Assembly (NCBI GenBank): GCA_023512255.1
Contig: JAILZY010000132.1
Coordinates: 1-8,005, forward strand
Origin: a bacterium
GTDB taxonomy: Bacteria; SZUA-182; DTGQ01
Direction of reading: 5' to 3'
Length of the DNA stretch: 8,005 nt
Shown: positions 1 through 8,005 of the stretch, one piece after another
Layout of the letters: each line of letters opens with the position of its first letter
Numbering within the stretch: the first letter of the stretch is position 1
Program-made: the position numbers and the translations under genes
Notes under the pieces: generated by a model
What the model saw: only the letters and a program-made list of their open reading frames with translations
Database searches by the model: none
Told to the model about the DNA's origin: nothing

Positions 1-139
1 ACTTTCTTCTCTCTTTATTTTCTCTCCTCCCCTTTATATTTTCAACATTATTTTTTCAACATGGGGAACATCTGGCTAGCTCTCTTCATTTCTTTATCGG
101 TGGAAATGATTAGAGAAATCAGCACATTTGCCCATCCAA
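1..139. other. Intergenic stretch at the left edge, pyrimidine-rich
   Basis: No gene is supported here. The plus strand starts with a C/T-rich tract (1-38), then has TTTTCAACAT twice (39-48 and 53-62). The second copy runs into the 18-bp repeat at 58-75. No clear hairpin plus T-tract terminator for the carboxypeptidase gene, which ends at 140, is visible. On the minus strand the purine-rich tract near 21-32 could be a ribosome binding site for a gene to the left of the window, but no start codon is inside the window. Confidence 0.45.
58..75 (+). repeat. 18-bp repeat, left copy of an inverted pair
   Basis: AACATGGGGAACATCTGG is found here and, as its exact reverse complement, at 7930-7947. 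The match stops at both ends of the 18 bases. Read on the minus strand this copy is followed, after 25 nt, by GGGGAGGAGAGA (32-21), and the other copy is followed on the plus strand by a similar GGAGGAGGAGA. It lies 64 bp past the stop of the carboxypeptidase gene. Identity is seen directly; role (operator, dispersed repeat or leader element of genes outside the window) is unknown. Confidence 0.8.
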
Positions 140-1681
140 TCATTTTGGATCGAGCAGAAATTCAACAATTTTATCTTGAATCGATTTGCAGATATGATGC
201 TGATTTCTGTTTTTGTTCATCATGATTGAAAAGGCAATTAGCTCGTCATGGTAAGAGTAGATATAGCCAGACAGGCAGGAGACCCCGTCAATTAGCCCGG
301 TCTTGACCCGCACTCTGTCCTGCACCTTAGGACTCCTCAGCCGTTTTCTCATCGTGCCATCAACACCAGCTATGGCCAGGGATGAAAAGTATTCCGGCTG
401 ATATTCAAATTTCTGCTGCATAAAGGTCAGAAGATCTACAATCTTTTTGGGAGTAGTGAGGTTATTTCTTGACAGCCCACATCCATCTGCGGGCAAAAAA
501 TCCTCAGCCCCAAGGCCCGACTCTTCCAAAAAATCCCTGATCGCGGCCAGCCCCTTTTCTGTCGTTCCCGGAGCCCCCTTGCTTTTGGCCCCAAGAGCCT
601 TCAAAAGCTGTTGGGCGATAAAGTTATTGCTGAACTTATTTAGACTAGCCACAATCTCCGAGAGGGGTTGGGATCGGTGGATACAAATCACCTTCGCCTC
701 CTCAGGAACGATACCTGGCCTTACCGGGCCTGAAATGTCAATCCCTTTTTGGCGAAGCATCTCTTTGATCACCTCGGCTGCATATCGGGAGGGCGCTTTA
801 ATGGCTCGATAGAGAGTCAGGGGCTTGTGGCGGATAGAGATCTGGCCAGACACGGTGAACGAATTCACTCCGTCCTCAAAATGCCTGGCAATAGTCAGGG
901 CTCTGCGTGGAGAGCGGGAGACAGTAGTTGCCTTGTTGATTACCCGGATCGCTCCCCCGCTTGAGGGAGGCTCCCAGCAGATCGAAGGCTTTTGCCCAAC
1001 CTTTGATCCAGGCCGAATCACAAAGGTTATGGTATTAAAATTAACCGATAACGCCCCGCTTTCTGCCCGGTACCAAACTGATGGGTCTCCACCTAAATGT
1101 TCCTCATTCTCCTCATCGGGAGCGAAGTAGGAATCATCAAAGACCAGCCCTTCGGTAACTTTCCTAACCCCAGCTTCTTTGACCTGCTGAGCCAGCGCCT
1201 CGATCTCTTCGGTAACCAGGAGCGGATCTCCGAATCCCTTGATGTAGAGAGGCCCTATAATCAATCCTCCGGCAGATAACTGTTTGGCATAGATAATGGT
1301 TGGGAAGGAGTAGTCGGGCTTGAACTTGGCCAAGGCTGCGGCTGAAATGAACAGCTTTTGATTTGAGGCTGGGATGAGCAGCTCGTTTGAGCAAATATCA
1401 GCCAGCACCTGACCGGTTTTTAAAGAGGTGATATAGAGGCCGACCTTCATCTCCCGCACGGCTGGATGGGAATAGAGGATAGATGTAATCTTATCCTGAA
1501 GTGGATACAGGATAGGCCGCCGCATCGAAGAGGCTACAGCTTCGGCTTTACCAGCCTGAGCAGTGGGTGAGCAAAGTAAAATATAGGCAAAGAGTGGAAG
1601 GCAAACAAAAGCCAAAAGAGGCCGCAGAACAACAAGAGTTGACTTTTTGGTCTGGTAATTAGTAGTAGCTATAGGTTCCAT
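140..1681 (-). CDS. dacB: D-alanyl-D-alanine carboxypeptidase/endopeptidase, PBP4 type (peptidase family S13)
   Basis: Penicillin-binding protein that trims or cleaves peptidoglycan cross-bridges outside the cytoplasmic membrane. All three active-site motifs are visible: S106-N-Q-K109 (nucleophile and general base), S351-N-N353 (the family's usual S-D-N, here with Asn in the middle) and K460-T-G. The long insertion of about 240 residues between the first two motifs is typical of S13, and 513 residues is a normal family length. The N-terminus has a KK pair, a hydrophobic core and a likely signal-peptidase cleavage after AQA (residue 43), so the protein is exported. I chose the ATG at 1681 because the signal peptide starts properly there and a GGAG (1693-1696) lies 11 nt upstream. 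The same frame is open to a TTG at 1729, but that start has no ribosome binding site and would add 16 residues before the signal peptide. It appears monocistronic. Function is certain at family level; whether carboxypeptidase or endopeptidase activity dominates cannot be told. Confidence 0.93.
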   Translation of the reverse strand: MEPIATTNYQTKKSTLVVLRPLLAFVCLPLFAYILLCSPTAQAGKAEAVASSMRRPILYPLQDKITSILYSHPAVREMKVGLYITSLKTGQVLADICSNELLIPASNQKLFISAAALAKFKPDYSFPTIIYAKQLSAGGLIIGPLYIKGFGDPLLVTEEIEALAQQVKEAGVRKVTEGLVFDDSYFAPDEENEEHLGGDPSVWYRAESGALSVNFNTITFVIRPGSKVGQKPSICWEPPSSGGAIRVINKATTVSRSPRRALTIARHFEDGVNSFTVSGQISIRHKPLTLYRAIKAPSRYAAEVIKEMLRQKGIDISGPVRPGIVPEEAKVICIHRSQPLSEIVASLNKFSNNFIAQQLLKALGAKSKGAPGTTEKGLAAIRDFLEESGLGAEDFLPADGCGLSRNNLTTPKKIVDLLTFMQQKFEYQPEYFSSLAIAGVDGTMRKRLRSPKVQDRVRVKTGLIDGVSCLSGYIYSYHDELIAFSIMMNKNRNQHHICKSIQDKIVEFLLDPK

Positions 1682-1752
1682 ATCCACGTAAGCTCCATGA
1701 TGGCCACAGGTGATAGTGATGTGAGACAAGATAGCTTTTAATCTTTTTGTGT

Positions 1753-1777
1753 ATCATAAATTGACCTTCACGGTCAA
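1753..1777 (-). promoter_or_regulatory. Candidate promoter with overlapping palindromic operator upstream of dacB
   Basis: On the minus strand a 17-bp palindrome TTGACC-GTGAA-GGTCAA (1777-1761) is followed two bases later by TATGAT (1758-1753), a 5/6 match to the -10 box. The palindrome fills the -12 to -35 region, where a repressor or spacer-binding activator would sit. TTGACC is too close (13 nt) to act as -35 for TATGAT, and the correctly spaced hexamer (TGTCTT) is poor, so the promoter may depend on an activator. It lies about 70 bp upstream of the dacB ATG. The palindrome is seen; its function is inference. Confidence 0.4.
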
Positions 1778-2035
1778 GACAGATTGAAGAGTTTTTCACA
1801 TTCTCTTTTCCCCTAGCTCAATCTTTTTGTTGATTTTCCTAGTAAATATAGCCAAGAGGGATTATAATTTAAGAGTATTTTATGTTACTGCTGCTTTTGC
1901 AGAAATTTCTTAACGCCTTGAAATCCTTAGAAAGTTACCTCTGACACCAAACCCAATAAAATCAATGGGTTAGAAAAAATTGCAAAAACATATTCTTATT
2001 CTTAGCCGTAAGGTGTGGACTGTGATAAGCAAAAT
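1778..2035. other. Intergenic gap upstream of the nuclease-helicase gene
   Basis: No gene is supported in this AT-rich stretch. It must contain the plus-strand promoter for the nuclease-helicase, but no convincing one stands out: TATAAT at 1863-1868 lacks a good -35, and TTACCT-N16-TAAAAT at 1935-1962 is weak. Small stem-loops occur at 1891-1902 (CTGC-TTTT-GCAG) and 1950-1971 (AACCCA, 10-nt loop, TGGGTT). Neither is followed by a T-tract. Confidence 0.4.
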
Positions 2036-2041
2036 GAGGAG
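2036..2041 (+). promoter_or_regulatory. Ribosome binding site fixing the nuclease-helicase start
   Basis: GAGGAG lies 5 nt before the ATG at 2047. It supports this start, and the first residues (ADFHLHS) already belong to PHP motif I, so no later start is possible. Confidence 0.8.
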
Positions 2042-2046
2042 CATAG

Positions 2047-5000
2047 ATGTATTTTATCGCTGATTTTCATCTCCATTCTTACTATTCTAGGGCTACCAGC
2101 AAGGATTGCTGCCCTGAGCAGCTTGGTCAGTGGGCCAGACTCAAAGGGGTGCAGGTGATCGGGACCGGAGACTTTACCCACCCCGGTTGGATTAAAGAGC
2201 TCAAAACCAAGCTTACTCCAGCGGCACAAGAGGAGGGATTATATCAGCTAAAACCTGAATACAGCGCCCCCTCTTCTGTCCGGCAGGCTTTGGTAGCCGG
2301 TGGCGCTGCGGATGCAGGGCAGGTTCGGTTTGTGCTCTCGGCTGAGATCAGCTCTATTTATAAAAAGAGTGGACGGGTCAGGAAAATACACAATCTGGTG
2401 TTAGTACCCGATATGGCTAGTGCAGAAAGGATTAATGCTGCCCTGGCTCGGTTTGGTAATCTTAGTTCAGATGGCAGACCAATCCTTGGGCTGGACAGCA
2501 GGAGGGTGCTTGAGATCTGCTTAGAGTGCTGCCCTCAGGTGATCTTTATCCCGGCCCATATCTGGACTCCACATTTTTCGCTCTTTGGCTCACAGTCAGG
2601 CTTTGACCACCTTACGGAATGCTTTGAGGATCTTTTTGAACACATCTTTGCCCTAGAGACAGGCCTGTCTTCGGATCCAGCTATGAATTTTAGACTCTCG
2701 GCCCTAGACGGCTATACCCTTGTTTCCAACTCCGATGCCCACTCGCCGAAAAATTTGGCCAGGGAGGCCAATTGCTTCGATACCGAACTCTCCTATCCGG
2801 CCATACGGCAGGCACTCAAAACGAAAGACCTTCAAACGTTCCGTGGGACTATCGAGTTTTATCCTCAGGAGGGAAAATATCACTATGATGGGCACCGGCT
2901 CTGCCAAGTGTGTTGGTCGCCTGAGCAGACTCTGGCTGCGGGCGGAGTCTGCCCCCGCTGCGGAAGAAAAGTAACGATCGGAGTGATGCACCGAGTGGTT
3001 GAGCTGGCTGACCGTCCAGTCGGCGGCCGGCCAAAATCACCGACTCCAGCCTGGGAGTCCCTCATCCCTCTGTCTCAGATTCTGGCCGAGCTCTACCAGG
3101 TGGGTGAGGGAAGCAAAAAGGTCGAGCAGGCGTATTTTCAGCTCCTGGCTAGTCTGGGAGATGAGTTGAGCATCCTGCGGACCATTCCCTTAGAGGAAAT
3201 TCAGGCCCGATCAAATCCCCTGCTGGCCGAGGGGATCCGCAGGGCGCGGGAAGGTAGGGTGAATATTCGTCCTGGGTTTGACGGAGAGTATGGCAAGGTT
3301 CAATTATTTGATGATCAGGACCGGCAAAAATTCAAGGCCCAGATGAGCCTATTTGGGATCATGGATCTTCCCTCTGGAAATAGAAAAGAGGCGGCTGGAA
3401 ATAGAAAAGAGGCGGCGGAAGAAAATCGGCCTGATGGTGAAGAGAAGGTCGGCTCTCTCAATTACCCTGCCTCCTCAGTCCCATCCGAGAGGATGAGAGG
3501 AGCCTTTGGCAAGGAGGAGCCGCAGGCCAGAGCGTCCCAAAGGCAGCTTTCCGGCAGACTAGAAATCCCCCCCCTGGCGACTCAAAGCCAGCAGGGAGCT
3601 GAGCCGAAGCAGCCCCCATCTTCTGCCTTCTTCCATACTCTGCCGCCCCCCTGGTTCCTTCAGCTGAACGAGGAGCAGCGCCAGTGTGTTACCTCTGACC
3701 GCGGGCCGATTATTATCATTGCTGGCCCAGGCACAGGCAAGACCAGGACCTTGGCCTGTAGGATCGCCTACCTGATCCATCAGCAACACATCCCGCCGTC
3801 GCGTATTTTGGCCATTACCTTCACCAACAAGGCTGCTCAGGAATTAGCCTCTAGGATCCGCCAGATACTCTCGCCGTCTGAGATGGAAGCCGAGGATAGC
3901 CTGCTCAGCGGCACCTTTCACCAGCTCTGCTTAACCATTTTGCAGGAAATCTCAGAGAGTGGCTATCACAGCAGTGCGTCGGCCGGGAAAATCCTACCGG
4001 TCAAAACCCTGCTCAATGAACAGGATGCCCTCCTGCTGGTCAAGGAGGCTGTGGAGGTTGCAAGATGCGCATCTTCATCATTCTCTGCCCTGGGGGGAGG
4101 AGGGGCCGTCAGTGGCAGAGTGACTAGCCCCCTTAGCCGGCTGCTCTCTCAGCCGCAGCGAATCTATCAGTGGATATCAAAAATAAAATCAAGGTCCTGG
4201 GGACTTGATCTTCTCCAGGCAGGATATTTACTCAAGCCTTTAGATTCTTCGCCTCCGCCTCCGCCGCCGGTCTGGATGAAGGAGGCTGTGCTTGAGCTAT
4301 CCCTACCGCTCGATCTTACGGCGGATGATCTTTGGCTGTGCTGCCTGGCCTATCAAAATCTCTTGTATCGCTATCAGGCCTATGACTATGACGATCTTTT
4401 ACTTGCCGTAGTGCGGCTTTTTCAGTCCGAGCCCAATATCCTGCACAACTACCAACGCCGCTTCTTGCAAGTGCTGGTGGATGAATTTCAGGATGTAAAT
4501 GAGATTCAATACCTCCTGGTCAAGCTGCTGGCAGGCCAGAATGGATATGGTCTTGTGGTCATCGGAGACCCGGACCAGGCCATCTATGCTTTCCGGGGCG
4601 CAGACTATCGGTTTTTTTTTCAGCTTCAGGAGGATTTTCCCAGCCATCGACTCTTTCGTCTCACCGAGAACTACCGCTCTCAAGGGTATATTCTTCAGGC
4701 TGCTTCGGCCTTGATTAGGCATAATCCTGACCGCATGGAGCTTGATTTGAAACCCGCTCGATCGCAAGAAAAATCCCTCTCCCGGGGCAACCGGACTATT
4801 AAGTTGCACCTTGTCAGCAGCGAGCAGGCCGAAGGGATAGGCATTGTCCGGCAGATCGCCAGGATGATGGGAGGGATCGATATGCTGGGGGCTCATGGAC
4901 AGGGGGAGAGTGAAAATCAGCTCAGGCTTTGGCAGGGGAGGGGAGAGCCTCGGTTGGTCGAGGAGAGGGCAGAGCTTGGCTTTTCCGATTTTGCCGTCTT

Positions 5001-6039
5001 AATTAGAGCCGGCCGACAGGCTGGGCCTCTTGAAACATGCTTTCTTCGGGCCGGGATACCATATCGGGTAGTCGGGCAAAAGGGGTTTTTGCAAAATCCC
5101 GCTGTTCAGACTACCGTGGCCTTGCTTCGCTTTTTGGCTAATGCAGAAGATGATTTTACAATGATGAATCTTCTCTATCACTGGGAGAAGAGCCACTGGA
5201 GCATCGGCGGCAGTGGGCCATTGGTCAGACAGAAGCTTCAGCAGCTTGCTAGCCAAAGGCCATGTTCGCTCTTCCAGGCGATCAGACATGCTCTACATGA
5301 GCAGACAGCAAGCCCATATGAGCTTCCAGCCTTGGTGAAAAATCGGCTCCAGGCTCTTCTTTCTCTCTGGGAGGAGCATCATCTTAGAATTTATGAGCCT
5401 GCGGATCAGCTTATTTTTGATCTAATCCGCTGGCAGGAGGAGGAGAGAGCAAGATCAGAAACCAGATGGCGTGTGGGCTCAGATCAGAAGGGTGAGGATC
5501 AGGCATCTTCCCTTTTCGAAGATTTAGATAGGCTCTATCAGTGTTCAAAGCAATTTTCATCTGCTGTTGAATTCCTCAAGAGCCTTCTTCTTTTCCGTGA
5601 TGGAGACCTCGAATATCAGGGGAAAAACACATCAAGGCAAGAGGCTGTCTCTTTGATGACCATCCATGCAGCCAAGGGGTTAGAATTTCCCGTGGTGTTT
5701 ATATGTGGACTGGAAGAGGGACCACTGCCCTACCGCCACTATGATTGGATCAATGAGCAAGCCAAGTATTCTAACCCCACCTCGGCGCAGCTTCCCCATG
5801 AGGAAAGCTGGCAGCGCCCAGAGGATCAGCGCCAGCGACAAGAGGAGCGCCGTCTGTTCTATGTAGCCATCACCCGGGCGAAGGATGAGTTAATATTTTT
5901 TTCAGCACGCCGCCGCCGACACAATCAGCAGGTGATCTCAACTCAACTCTCTTCCTTTCTGGCTGAAATCCCTGACCATCTGTTAAGCGAAGTCTCGTTC
6001 TCTCCTGCAATCAAATCTCGTCAATTGCGGCTGTTTTGA
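2047..6039 (+). CDS. Endonuclease Q-like PHP nuclease fused to a UvrD/PcrA superfamily-1 DNA helicase
   Basis: A 1330-residue two-enzyme protein. Residues 1-425 match endonuclease Q, which nicks DNA 5' of deaminated bases. Visible are the PHP metal-site motifs H8-x-H10, D42/H45, E100, H115, H171/H176 (PAHIWTPHFSLFG) and D230-x-H232, then a zinc site C286/C289/C302/C305 and the conserved RPGFDGEYGKV end of the domain. Residues 437-530 are a low-complexity linker. Residues 531-1330 are a full UvrD-type 3'-5' helicase: Q motif (LNEEQ, 540-544), Walker A AGPGTGKT (559-566), Ia TFTNKAAQE (591-599), Walker B VDEFQD (811-816), GDPDQAIYAFRG (840-851), TENYRS (873-878), MTIHAAKGLEFP (1204-1215) and YVAITRAKDEL (1272-1282). 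No key residue is missing. QMSLF (432-436) and the terminal QLRLF (1326-1330) resemble sliding-clamp-binding motifs. It stands alone in its operon. Family calls are firm; a concerted repair function is inference. Confidence 0.93.
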   Translation: MYFIADFHLHSYYSRATSKDCCPEQLGQWARLKGVQVIGTGDFTHPGWIKELKTKLTPAAQEEGLYQLKPEYSAPSSVRQALVAGGAADAGQVRFVLSAEISSIYKKSGRVRKIHNLVLVPDMASAERINAALARFGNLSSDGRPILGLDSRRVLEICLECCPQVIFIPAHIWTPHFSLFGSQSGFDHLTECFEDLFEHIFALETGLSSDPAMNFRLSALDGYTLVSNSDAHSPKNLAREANCFDTELSYPAIRQALKTKDLQTFRGTIEFYPQEGKYHYDGHRLCQVCWSPEQTLAAGGVCPRCGRKVTIGVMHRVVELADRPVGGRPKSPTPAWESLIPLSQILAELYQVGEGSKKVEQAYFQLLASLGDELSILRTIPLEEIQARSNPLLAEGIRRAREGRVNIRPGFDGEYGKVQLFDDQDRQKFKAQMSLFGIMDLPSGNRKEAAGNRKEAAEENRPDGEEKVGSLNYPASSVPSERMRGAFGKEEPQARASQRQLSGRLEIPPLATQSQQGAEPKQPPSSAFFHTLPPPWFLQLNEEQRQCVTSDRGPIIIIAGPGTGKTRTLACRIAYLIHQQHIPPSRILAITFTNKAAQELASRIRQILSPSEMEAEDSLLSGTFHQLCLTILQEISESGYHSSASAGKILPVKTLLNEQDALLLVKEAVEVARCASSSFSALGGGGAVSGRVTSPLSRLLSQPQRIYQWISKIKSRSWGLDLLQAGYLLKPLDSSPPPPPPVWMKEAVLELSLPLDLTADDLWLCCLAYQNLLYRYQAYDYDDLLLAVVRLFQSEPNILHNYQRRFLQVLVDEFQDVNEIQYLLVKLLAGQNGYGLVVIGDPDQAIYAFRGADYRFFFQLQEDFPSHRLFRLTENYRSQGYILQAASALIRHNPDRMELDLKPARSQEKSLSRGNRTIKLHLVSSEQAEGIGIVRQIARMMGGIDMLGAHGQGESENQLRLWQGRGEPRLVEERAELGFSDFAVLIRAGRQAGPLETCFLRAGIPYRVVGQKGFLQNPAVQTTVALLRFLANAEDDFTMMNLLYHWEKSHWSIGGSGPLVRQKLQQLASQRPCSLFQAIRHALHEQTASPYELPALVKNRLQALLSLWEEHHLRIYEPADQLIFDLIRWQEEERARSETRWRVGSDQKGEDQASSLFEDLDRLYQCSKQFSSAVEFLKSLLLFRDGDLEYQGKNTSRQEAVSLMTIHAAKGLEFPVVFICGLEEGPLPYRHYDWINEQAKYSNPTSAQLPHEESWQRPEDQRQRQEERRLFYVAITRAKDELIFFSARRRRHNQQVISTQLSSFLAEIPDHLLSEVSFSPAIKSRQLRLF
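3376..3417 (+). repeat. In-frame 21-bp tandem duplication in the linker
   Basis: Two copies of a 21-bp unit (3376-3396 and 3397-3417) differ only at their last base and encode GNRKEAA twice (residues 444-450 and 451-457). They sit at the start of the low-complexity linker between nuclease and helicase, shortly after the QMSLF motif. A recent slippage duplication in a region of low constraint is the simplest reading. Confidence 0.9.
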
Positions 6040-6065
6040 AGCTGTTTGAGGTTTTTAGACACTAT

Positions 6066-6103
6066 GAAGAATACCCTACTCGCAGAAGAATACCCTACTT
6101 GCG
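6066..6103. repeat. 19-bp tandem repeat, two copies
   Basis: GAAGAATACCCTACTCGCA (6066-6084) is followed at once by a second copy (6085-6103) with 17 of 19 bases identical. It starts right after a T, so that TGAAGAATACCC could be read as a TG-type element end. Nothing in the flanks shows a transposase. Confidence 0.75.
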
Positions 6104-6130
6104 ACCTTAAAACCGTAGACAATCCATCGC

Positions 6131-6156
6131 CTTATTTGCATTACTTATTTGCATTA
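6131..6156. repeat. 13-bp exact tandem repeat, two copies
   Basis: CTTATTTGCATTA occurs twice without a gap (6131-6143 and 6144-6156), and the copies are identical. It lies in the non-coding region downstream of the helicase gene and probably arose by slippage. Confidence 0.8.
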
Positions 6157-6255
6157 TCAGTGTTTGGCCGTAGAATATCTCCACCCGTCTATAAACCTTA
6201 GTCGCTCTTATTTATTAGCTACCATTAAGAGACATAACCCTAATAAGAGTTAAGC

Positions 6256-6270
6256 CCCTTCGAGGGTTTT
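6256..6270 (+). terminator. Weak candidate terminator of the nuclease-helicase gene
   Basis: CCCT-TCG-AGGG (6256-6266) followed by TTTT is the only hairpin plus T-tract on the plus strand downstream of the helicase stop. The stem is only 4 bp and it lies 217 nt after the stop, so the call is tentative. AAGC before and TTTT after could add a few weak pairs. Confidence 0.25.
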
Positions 6271-6359
6271 ATGGTTGTTCTGTATACCTTAAGGGTTTAT
6301 GGTGTCTGATATATAAGAGCTACCTTAGTTAGGGTCTATAACCCTTAGTTAGCCTGGCT

Positions 6360-6554
6360 TTATTCATCCTCCTCTAGGATAATGGCATCGACCGGGCAGC
6401 TTTCAACTGCCTCATAACAGGAATCCATAGCCTCTTCGGGAACTTCATCCGTAATCACATGAGCTCTTTCACCATCGATTTCAAATACTTCTGGACAAAG
6501 CTCTTCGCATTGCCCACAGCCTATGCACAGTTCACCATCCACAATAGCTATCAT
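6360..6554 (-). CDS. Single-cluster [4Fe-4S] ferredoxin
   Basis: A 64-residue acidic electron carrier of the cytoplasm. Cysteines C10, C13 and C16 plus C53 (followed by Pro) form the expected ligand set of one [4Fe-4S] cluster. C20 and C46 match the two extra cysteines that form a disulfide in Desulfovibrio gigas ferredoxin II-type proteins, in place of a second cluster. The acidic tail EEDE and a chain of about 60 residues are normal for this group. The ATG is fixed by GAGGAGG 9 nt upstream, which lies inside the preceding gene, and the two genes share ATGA, so translation is probably coupled. The electron donor and acceptor cannot be told: no partner oxidoreductase is in the window. The cluster type is secure; the disulfide is inferred from the family. 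Confidence 0.93.
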   Translation of the reverse strand: MIAIVDGELCIGCGQCEELCPEVFEIDGERAHVITDEVPEEAMDSCYEAVESCPVDAIILEEDE

Positions 6555-6937
6555 TGGCTTGATCCTCCTCGTGATAAAGTAATAAAATCTCCATCCTCGA
6601 ACTCTTTTAACCTGCTGATGTCGCCTATTATGCGACCAACAATATTAACCTTATCCGCACTGATGATTTCATTGCCCTCGCTCAGTGGCGTTGGTCCAAA
6701 GAAAATACATAGTGCTTTGCCTGTCGGCCAATAGCCAAGCTCACCGACCTCTACCGTATCACGAGCGGTTTTGTCTAGCTCGCTACTGACCGGGATCGAG
6801 AAATAGATTTCCTCTCCCCAAAGATTTCCAGACGATTCTATCGGCAATCGCTCCCAGATGAGCTTAGCCGTAGGGGTATCGTTTAGTATACCTTCAAGTT
6901 CAATGTTGCCAACCTTAATATTAATTTTATGAGACAT
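6551..6937 (-). CDS. Cyclophilin-like fold protein (TM1367 / DUF369 type)
   Basis: A 128-residue soluble protein with no signal peptide or membrane segment. It matches the small cyclophilin-like family known from Thermotoga TM1367 and many archaea and anaerobes. The family hallmark is the stretch around residues 66-84 (GELGYWPTGKALCIFFGPTP), plus the earlier IWERLPIES and GEEIYFSIP segments and the later VGRIIGD. The fold is that of cyclophilins, but prolyl isomerase activity is not established for the family, so the biochemical role is open. The ATG at 6937 has GGAG (6948-6945) 7 nt upstream. It is the first gene of a two-gene operon: its TGA overlaps the ferredoxin ATG by four bases. The pairing might reflect a shared redox or folding task, which is inference only. 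Confidence 0.88.
   Translation of the reverse strand: MSHKINIKVGNIELEGILNDTPTAKLIWERLPIESSGNLWGEEIYFSIPVSSELDKTARDTVEVGELGYWPTGKALCIFFGPTPLSEGNEIISADKVNIVGRIIGDISRLKEFEDGDFITLSRGGSSQ
6564..6570 (-). promoter_or_regulatory. Strong ribosome binding site of the ferredoxin, inside the upstream gene
   Basis: GAGGAGG on the minus strand, 9 nt before the ferredoxin ATG, lies within the last codons of the cyclophilin-like gene (Arg-Gly-Gly). This strong internal site suggests that the ferredoxin is made at equal or higher level than its partner from the same message. Confidence 0.75.
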
Positions 6938-7006
6938 ATTTCATCTCCACTACCCTAAAAATCATAGTCTAAGCTACGAAAGAGATAGTATAGACAAGGT
7001 GATAGT

Positions 7007-7035
7007 CTTATAGCATTTATCGAAAAGATTGTCAA
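7007..7035 (-). promoter_or_regulatory. Sigma-70 promoter of the cyclophilin-like/ferredoxin operon
   Basis: On the minus strand a perfect TTGACA (7035-7030), a 17-nt spacer and TATAAG (7012-7007) are visible. The spacer ends in TGC, giving an extended -10 (TGnTATAAG). The start codon at 6937 is about 60 nt past the expected transcription start. ATAGTCT recurs at 6964-6970 and 7002-7008, the second copy within the -10 region, and may be a regulator site. Confidence 0.75.
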
Positions 7036-7047
7036 TTACGATGGTAG

Positions 7048-7080
7048 AAATCAGCAATTCAGACTGAGAATTGCTGATTT
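7048..7080. terminator. Perfect 13-bp hairpin between lepB and the next operon
   Basis: AAATCAGCAATTC (7048-7060) and its exact reverse complement GAATTGCTGATTT (7068-7080) enclose a 7-nt loop. It lies 161 nt past the lepB stop and 12 bp upstream of the -35 box of the next operon. The stem is AT-rich and on the minus strand has only three T after it, so it is a weak intrinsic terminator for lepB at best; an operator or an mRNA-end stabiliser fits equally well. The structure is certain, the role is not. Confidence 0.5.
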
Positions 7081-7105
7081 TGATGCGACTTGTAGAAATT
7101 TTTCC

Positions 7106-7157
7106 GGCAAACTCTGGAGTGGCTGGCAAACTCTTGAGGGGGCGGCAAACTCTGGAT
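7106..7157. repeat. Triple direct repeat with 19-bp period
   Basis: GGCAAACTCTGGAG (7106-7119), GGCAAACTCTTGAG (7125-7138) and GGCAAACTCTGGAT (7144-7157) share GGCAAACTCT and GA at an exact 19-bp spacing. The bases between copies are G-rich. A partial GGCAA follows at 7171. Regularly spaced subterminal repeats are typical of IS21-type element ends, and TGTAGAAATTTTTCC precedes copy one (7091-7105). A relic end is therefore possible, but no transposase gene or second end is seen. Other readings are an array of protein binding sites or an intergenic repeat. Confidence 0.7.
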
Positions 7158-7241
7158 AGGGATTAGATGCGGCAATTTTAAGTTTTTTCCTTGAAAACCA
7201 CAAGGGGCCGGTGCGAAACCACGGGGGCTTTGCGCGAGCAG

Positions 7242-7832
7242 CTAATGCAATATCTTGGCAAAACGGCTCCAGCGGACCCAATTTGATTCTGCATCCCATG
7301 ACCAGTAAATGATAAAAGCTTTACCTTTAATCATATCCTCTGGCAGAAGTCCCCAGAATCGACTGTCAAGGCTACAATCACGATTGTCCCCCATAACAAA
7401 GAAATATCCCTCGGGAATGGTTATCGGGCCATAGTTATCGCGGACAGAAGAGAGACCTACAGCGGCCTCACCGCCTTCATGAATAACGTAGGGCTCATAC
7501 AGCGGCTTGCCGTTGATGAAAACCTGCTTATTTCGAATTTCCAGGGTATCGCCAGGTTTTCCGATCAGCCGCTTGATAAAGTCGCGGGAGGGGTCTTGAG
7601 GGTATTTAAAGACGATAATATCCCCGCGTTCGGGCTTTTCAAACCGGTAAATAAATTTATTAACTAGGATATGATCCCCGATCAATAGGGTCGGAATCAT
7701 GGATCCTGATGGAATTTTAAAGGCTTGAACTACAAAGGTGCGGATGACAAGGGCTAGGGCGATGGCGATAACAATTGCCTCGAGATATTCTCGGTAAATC
7801 GACTTTCTTTTGATTTCTCTGTTTTGATTCAT
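7242..7832 (-). CDS. lepB: Signal peptidase I
   Basis: Membrane-bound serine/lysine protease that removes signal peptides from exported proteins on the outer face of the cytoplasmic membrane. The 196-residue protein has one N-terminal membrane segment (about 18-37) after a basic cytoplasmic start, then the family boxes in order: box B with catalytic S44 (PSGSMIPTL, 41-49), box C (GDHILVNKF, 52-60), box D RGDIIVFKYP (69-78) with catalytic K87 in IKRLIGKPGD (86-95), and box E MGDNRDCSLDSRFWG (147-161). C153 is unusual at a position that more often holds N or R. The C-terminal VRWSRFAKILH is intact. Length is normal for single-span enzymes. The ATG at 7832 follows a distant GAGGG (7850-7846, 13 nt), so initiation may be modest. 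It has its own promoter. The S13 carboxypeptidase in this window is a likely substrate. Confidence 0.96.
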   Translation of the reverse strand: MNQNREIKRKSIYREYLEAIVIAIALALVIRTFVVQAFKIPSGSMIPTLLIGDHILVNKFIYRFEKPERGDIIVFKYPQDPSRDFIKRLIGKPGDTLEIRNKQVFINGKPLYEPYVIHEGGEAAVGLSSVRDNYGPITIPEGYFFVMGDNRDCSLDSRFWGLLPEDMIKGKAFIIYWSWDAESNWVRWSRFAKILH

Positions 7833-7884
7833 AAAAATGATGAATCCCTCGAAAAGTTAATATATAAGACATAATAAAAAATCA

Positions 7885-7913
7885 ATTTTAATCATTACTG
7901 AAAGATTTGTCAA
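7885..7913 (-). promoter_or_regulatory. Sigma-70 promoter of lepB
   Basis: On the minus strand TTGACA (7913-7908), a 17-nt spacer and TAAAAT (7890-7885) give a near-consensus promoter. The expected transcript starts near 7878 and has an AT-rich leader of about 45 nt. The right copy of the 18-bp repeat ends 16 bp upstream of the -35 box. Confidence 0.75.
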
Positions 7914-7929
7914 GCTCTCCAGCAACTTC

Positions 7930-7947
7930 CCAGATGTTCCCCATGTT
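7930..7947 (-). repeat. 18-bp repeat, right copy of an inverted pair
   Basis: CCAGATGTTCCCCATGTT on the plus strand is the exact reverse complement of 58-75. It sits directly upstream of the lepB promoter. On the plus strand it is followed after 7 nt by GGAGGAGGAGA (7955-7965), echoing the purine tract beyond the left copy. Confidence 0.8.
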
Positions 7948-8005
7948 TAAATTAGGAGGAGGAGATAAGCCGCAGGGGAAGGGTATTGAGGTAAAAGATA
8001 ATAGT
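7948..8005 (+). other. Purine-rich right edge, possible leader of a gene beyond the window
   Basis: GGAGGAGGAGA at 7955-7965 looks like a strong ribosome binding site on the plus strand, but no ATG or GTG follows at a proper distance. Either it is the leader of a rightward gene starting outside the window or a simple purine repeat. Confidence 0.25.

Follow-up and report, generated by a model that had tools for sequence, protein, structure and literature searches.

A fusion of endonuclease Q with a UvrD-like helicase in about a dozen bacterial phyla: a putative clamp-associated repair enzyme for deaminated DNA

What could a bacterium do with a nuclease and a helicase joined in one polypeptide? 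This question is raised by a single gene in an 8,005-nucleotide stretch of bacterial DNA (hereafter, the window; contig JAILZY010000132.1, positions 1 to 8,005, GenBank assembly GCA_023512255.1, GTDB lineage SZUA-182; DTGQ01). An earlier reading of the letters alone (the original prediction) proposed that this gene encodes endonuclease Q (EndoQ) fused to a UvrD helicase, forming a self-contained repair machine for deaminated bases. The 1330-amino-acid open reading frame (ORF) encodes an entire endonuclease Q followed, in one chain, by a complete UvrD-like superfamily 1A (SF1A) helicase, with the following features:

2047..6039, + strand: EndoQ-UvrD fusion gene, 1330 amino acids, entire ORF with stop codon (ORF list; one-frame architecture in relatives)
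2047..3318, + strand: endonuclease Q half, residues 1-424, with PHP domain, zinc site, and C-terminal domain (match to Pyrococcus furiosus EndoQ in the PDB, E 1.1e-45; fold match with template modeling (TM) scores 0.76/0.85)
2902..2964, + strand: zinc site CxxC...CxxCG, residues 286-306 (motif positions; C289 not invariant in relatives)
3340..3354, + strand: first beta-clamp-binding-like motif QMSLF, residues 432-436 (Q-led motif at the matching offset past DGEYG in fusions)
3355..3663, + strand: inter-domain linker, residues 437-539 (low complexity; predicted local distance difference test (pLDDT) below 50 in the equivalent stretch of the relative L009)
3664..5901, + strand: UvrD-like SF1A helicase, residues 540-1285 (PF00580, PF13361; PcrA match, E 1e-84; motifs)
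6022..6036, + strand: second beta-clamp-binding-like motif QLRLF, residues 1326-1330, at the C-terminus (C-terminal motif in complete fusions)

The fusion ORF is intact, begins with ATG, and is the sole long open frame on the + strand of the window; in the alignment, its start lines up with those of its relatives. A motif check recovered the motifs quoted in the original prediction where it had placed them. In the EndoQ half, these are H8/H10, E100, PAHIWTPH (169-176), SNSDAH (227-232), C286/C289, C302/C305, and FDGEYGK (411-417), while the helicase motifs span from LNEEQRQ (540-546) to EERRLFYVAITRA (1266-1278).

The first half is EndoQ by its sequence, fold, and active-site residues, and not another PHP family. 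Among all PDB sequences, the sole match to residues 5-424 is the endonuclease Q of P. furiosus (PfuEndoQ, E 1.1e-45). An AlphaFold2 model of residues 1-449, based on an alignment of 29 sequences, reached a pLDDT of 84.6 and a predicted TM score (pTM) of 0.87. A Foldseek search with this model returned PfuEndoQ as the top structure (E 2e-34, TM 0.76/0.85), with 28-29% identity over the aligned model, and the next PHP proteins followed at E 4.5e-5 or worse, with a TM score of about 0.3 on the query. Superposition on EndoQ crystal structures, which had been suggested as a check on the EndoQ-like half, thus places the model far closer to PfuEndoQ than to other PHP proteins.

Alignment with PfuEndoQ assigns its metal residues E76, H84, H139, and D193 to E100, H115, H171, and D230, and its lesion-pocket residues H139, G169, and S171 (taken from a review, and said to exclude normal bases and hold uracil or hypoxanthine) to H171, G206, and S208. 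All the PfuEndoQ metal and pocket residues that could be mapped are retained, including those of the lesion pocket, whose loss had been named as an argument against an EndoQ identity. E100, H115, H171, G206, and S208 are invariant over the 29 sequences, which come from many phyla, and D230 is replaced by Asn in one of them (L087). In PfuEndoQ, E76, H84, and H139 form the metal site, and losing any one of them abolishes activity (PMC8307549); the part played by D193 in this site is deduced from the 7k30 crystal form of PfuEndoQ, which also bears Asn at this position. The four-cysteine zinc site is complete (C286, C289, C302, and C305), with C289 varying among relatives.

The prediction of a complete SF1A helicase stands equally. 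Residues 540-1285 match the Pfam families UvrD-helicase (1.1e-65) and UvrD_C (3.7e-41) and, among the PcrA/UvrD structures of the PDB, reach E 1e-84 with PcrA. Walker A and B and all the SF1A motifs are present, and 32 full-length fusions show no variation at the key residues. In a full-length model of L009, each half finds its own counterpart, PfuEndoQ (TM 0.86) for one and UvrD (TM up to 0.86, on target) for the other. The equivalog scores are all far below the cut-offs (PcrA 392 vs. 911, UvrD 314 vs. 1144, and Rep 343 vs. 951 bits), and PcrA-like copies from the same genomes group apart from the fused helicases in the helicase tree (Shimodaira-Hasegawa-like approximate likelihood ratio test, 94). 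This tree is compatible with one origin of the fused helicases, without proving it. The host genome encodes a separate PcrA, whose C-terminal stretch differs and is devoid of the clamp motif. In two Desulfobacterales metagenome-assembled genomes (MAGs; G013 and G015), nothing UvrD-like other than the fusion matches at E 1e-15; the fusion may be their sole UvrD-type helicase, or these MAGs may be incomplete.

Overlooked by the original prediction, two beta-clamp-binding-like motifs are found in the protein, QMSLF after the nuclease (432-436) and QLRLF at the C-terminus (1326-1330). Clamp motifs have the consensus QxxLF, and the dimeric beta clamp offers two sites to which they can bind (PMC12309361). 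Using a broad pattern, a Q-led motif stands exactly 15 residues past DGEYG in 69 of 74 fusions, and a motif lies within the last 12 residues in 56 of 60 complete fusions, against backgrounds in the same proteins of 6% and 3%, respectively. The strict QxxLF form occupies the first site in 35/73 fusions and the C-terminal one in 46/58, over a background of no more than about 0.1%. As the fusion sequences are related, these counts are not independent; among representatives below 70% identity, they become 15/30 and 16/21 (background up to 0.3%). The regions flanking both motifs are otherwise variable, and are poorly ordered in the L009 model, where the linker and tail have low confidence. With QxxLF-type motifs in such exposed or disordered stretches, the fusion is a probable client of the beta clamp. 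Several related unfused EndoQs terminate in the same clamp motif, bacterial EndoQs have already been noted to carry clamp motifs at their ends, and Thermococcus EndoQ binds PCNA and is stimulated by it via a C-terminal PCNA-interacting protein (PIP) box (PMC4858679). This suggests that the first motif is probably ancestral to EndoQ, the second one sitting after the helicase.

The supposition that such fusions exist in other genomes proved right, and a search for PHP(EndoQ)+UvrD architectures and their taxonomic spread shows that they are not rare. When genome loci are ranked by their match to the EndoQ half, 67 of the top 80 carry EndoQ and helicase as a single frame; this sample is skewed to fusions because the query was itself a fusion. 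The fusion is found in about a dozen bacterial phyla, namely Bacillota, Chloroflexota, Gemmatimonadota, Latescibacterota, Nitrospinota, Thermodesulfobacteriota, Calditrichota, Elusimicrobiota, Spirochaetota, Cloacimonadota, KSB1, and Aminicenantes (labels from record titles, many of them of MAGs, which may be wrong). TIGR00375 family matches occur in 153 of the 299 sampled Bacillota genomes, and at least 31 of the 299 carry the match in frames of about 980-1360 amino acids (counted from match rows, with open-frame length as a proxy for fusion). The fusion is also present in genomes of the same genus, family, and order as that of the window. A chance fusion or an assembly artefact is ruled out by the one-frame architecture at 67 of 80 independent loci, by these related genomes, and by the tree.

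The EndoQ tree, built from 110 domains with a quick method, gathers all the fused forms in one group (support 98), within which six unfused or split members are read as probable later losses. At locus L077, EndoQ and helicase are adjacent separate genes, ending in QLGLF and QREFF; this locus branches just outside the fused clade (support 81, weak), followed by unfused Nitrospirota and Peregrinibacteria. Such a topology would fit a single fusion of neighbouring genes, with a few losses, and the two halves have been linked for a long time. Most Bacillota EndoQs branch apart, in a deep clade of their own, and are taken here to be of the B. subtilis type. A phage origin was considered and rejected, with no EndoQ-half match among the best 20 of 35 matching phage records, all of them helicase-only.

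Several individual loci depart from the common layout. Bacillota loci L098-L106, L109-L112, and L117 make up a second deep clade of bacterial EndoQs, one that lacks the helicase. Another Bacillota locus (L114, G079) carries a fused EndoQ (1052-4699, +) and an unfused sister copy (11753-13087, -) about 7 kb apart, which looks like a duplication followed by loss of the helicase part. At L047, a TAG stop inside the linker (LNPEQ*AAV, about 6906-6910) splits EndoQ and helicase into two frames, and may be a point mutation, an assembly error, or a case of readthrough. In G041, from the same genus as the window, the fusion (L089/L149) shows a frame change near EndoQ residue 107 and is otherwise 71% identical.

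What, then, would this protein do? From the features above, we infer its activities, its clamp binding, its polarity, and the order of its steps, and propose with moderate confidence that it works with the clamp in the excision repair of deaminated bases and apurinic/apyrimidinic (AP) sites. The two clamp-binding motifs would first dock the fusion on the dimeric, two-site beta sliding clamp. The EndoQ half would then flip the lesion out (uracil, hypoxanthine, xanthine, or an AP site) and nick on its 5' side to leave a 3'-OH; EndoQ is known to cut 5' of the lesion, generating a 5'-phosphate and a 3'-OH (PMC4357722). The UvrD-like half would load at the nick, use the intact strand as its track in the 3' to 5' direction, and displace the lesion strand as a 5' flap. 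UvrD-type helicases translocate 3' to 5', and tracking on the intact strand is preferred here because this direction on the nicked strand leads away from the lesion, whereas on the intact strand it displaces the lesion strand. The outcome would be a clamp-bound primer end and a flap, i.e., long-patch repair, in which the 3'-OH would be extended by a clamp-bound polymerase and the work completed by other proteins, a 5' nuclease and a ligase. The term 'self-contained' used in the original prediction was too strong, as the two clamp motifs suggest cooperation with partners, namely the beta clamp, a polymerase, and a ligase, and the fusion protein contains no flap nuclease. A broader proposal, which we advance only tentatively, is that of a widespread bacterial pathway, operating beside glycosylase repair in about a dozen phyla, in which one polypeptide, docked through both clamp sites, would cut on the 5' side of a deaminated base and peel off the damaged strand so that long-patch synthesis can replace it.

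Several observations weigh against the repair enzyme proposed here. The protein scores 152 bits with TIGR00375, below the curated NCBIfam cut-off of 326.6 bits; since 152 of the 153 matching Bacillota genomes are likewise under it, this model marks a narrow equivalog rather than the whole EndoQ family. In L087 (Spirochaetota), SNSNAH replaces SNSDAH, with Asn at the catalytic Asp position, and this EndoQ half may be a natural inactive or altered nuclease. The first clamp motif is often degenerate in Bacillota (QMSFF, QLCLI), the strict QxxLF being present in about half of the sequences, and the whole-protein model has a pTM of only 0.60, so that the domain arrangement is not fixed by it. Other repair routes also coexist with the fusion: a gene of the uracil-DNA glycosylase (UDG) superfamily is found in 38 of 40 fusion-bearing genomes (two in the host genome), and endonuclease V (EndoV) in 10 of 41, including the host genome and its near relatives. 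The fusion, thus, adds to these routes and replaces none of them. A replacement of UDG was rejected on these counts, and the alternative to glycosylase-based repair that had been predicted is not supported in that sense. Absence of EndoV as the driver of the fusion was also discarded, as EndoV is missing in 31/41 genomes but present here and in near relatives, with no clear rule.

Some of these points could be read differently. The EndoQ fold may have been kept for another substrate (e.g., AP sites only, or single-stranded or branched fork DNA), making the protein a clamp-linked fork or AP-site factor and not a deamination repair enzyme, with a helicase that strips off the nicked strand or dislodges proteins from stalled forks. 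The 28-29% identity to PfuEndoQ over the aligned model, the TIGR00375 score under its cut-off, the UDG of nearly all hosts, which already gives deaminated bases a route, and clamp motifs suited to fork work would all agree with this, but the pocket residues (H139, G169, and S171 in PfuEndoQ) are conserved without exception in 29 relatives, and we consider it unlikely. The two halves could also be mostly independent; the fusion would then only place the two enzymes together at the clamp, for reasons of stoichiometry, and the UvrD-like helicase would fill general UvrD roles, such as mismatch or nucleotide excision repair or transcription conflicts. The linker is indeed long, disordered, and variable in length, unfused EndoQ persists in six members within the fused clade, and the fusion is the only UvrD-like match in the two Desulfobacterales MAGs. 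Nevertheless, a single fusion has been kept in about a dozen phyla, where most hosts tested have a separate PcrA-like helicase, suggesting a coupled role and leaving independence quite improbable. Finally, an anti-phage or anti-plasmid factor directed against foreign DNA that contains uracil or hypoxanthine, comparable to nuclease and UvrD pairs such as Gabija, is very improbable: the PADLOC models GajB and RTasHel match the helicase, as they would any UvrD-like helicase, and a defence role was previously suggested for bacterial EndoQ (PMC8307549), but the locus has housekeeping flanks, with no defence neighbours, no GajA partner, and no conserved partner, the spread of EndoQ, to half of the Bacillota genomes sampled, is not the patchy one of a defence gene, and the clamp motifs fit replication or repair.

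Compared with known systems, the repair enzyme proposed here combines familiar elements. The EndoQs of P. furiosus (5zb8, 7k30) and Thermococcus kodakarensis share its PHP fold, metal and pocket residues, zinc site, and a clamp-binding motif after the EndoQ domain; they stand alone with a PCNA (PIP) motif, whereas the fusion adds the linker, helicase, and second clamp motif. The B. subtilis/B. pumilus type of EndoQ (TIGR00375) belongs to the same family, but to the separate deep clade without helicase (type assigned by score), and its sampled tails are devoid of clamp motif by the pattern used; for the enzyme of B. pumilus, nicking has been reported both at deaminated bases and at AP sites (PMC6202378). 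PcrA, UvrD, and Rep have all the SF1A motifs of the fusion, with a TM score up to 0.86 between L009 and UvrD, but the fusion is far under their equivalog cut-offs, apart from same-genome PcrA in the tree, and ends in a clamp motif. Gabija GajAB also pairs a nuclease with a UvrD-like helicase, but as two proteins, with a nuclease unrelated to EndoQ and a defence role, and no such partner is found at the fusion locus.

The components are familiar one by one; what appears not to have been reported before is their arrangement in one protein, how widely it is spread, and the presence of two clamp motifs. No EndoQ-helicase fusion was found described in the open-access literature, in which EndoQ papers do occur; subscription papers were outside this scope, and such absence is not proof. 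EndoQ has been pictured as mainly archaeal, with few bacterial cases (PMC4858679, PMC4357722). The family's presence in 153/299 Bacillota genomes indicates that its bacterial role is probably underestimated. A helicase and the sliding clamp are the partners that this natural fusion suggests for EndoQ, a proposal testable within one protein, for instance that of the cultured relatives Sporomusa and Propionispora.

The remaining features of the window are neighbours of the fusion gene:

140-1729, - strand: PBP4-type D-Ala-D-Ala carboxypeptidase
6551-6937, - strand: cyclophilin-like protein
7242-7832, - strand: signal peptidase I

No RNA elements were found in the window, and no conserved operon partner exists across the 80 loci, which argues that the partner function sits in the fusion protein itself. 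The only frequent neighbour cluster, present at 12 of the 80 loci, resembles a generic ATP-binding cassette transporter ATPase, as judged by eye, and an 88% identical copy of the cyclophilin-like protein lies near the fusion in G041.

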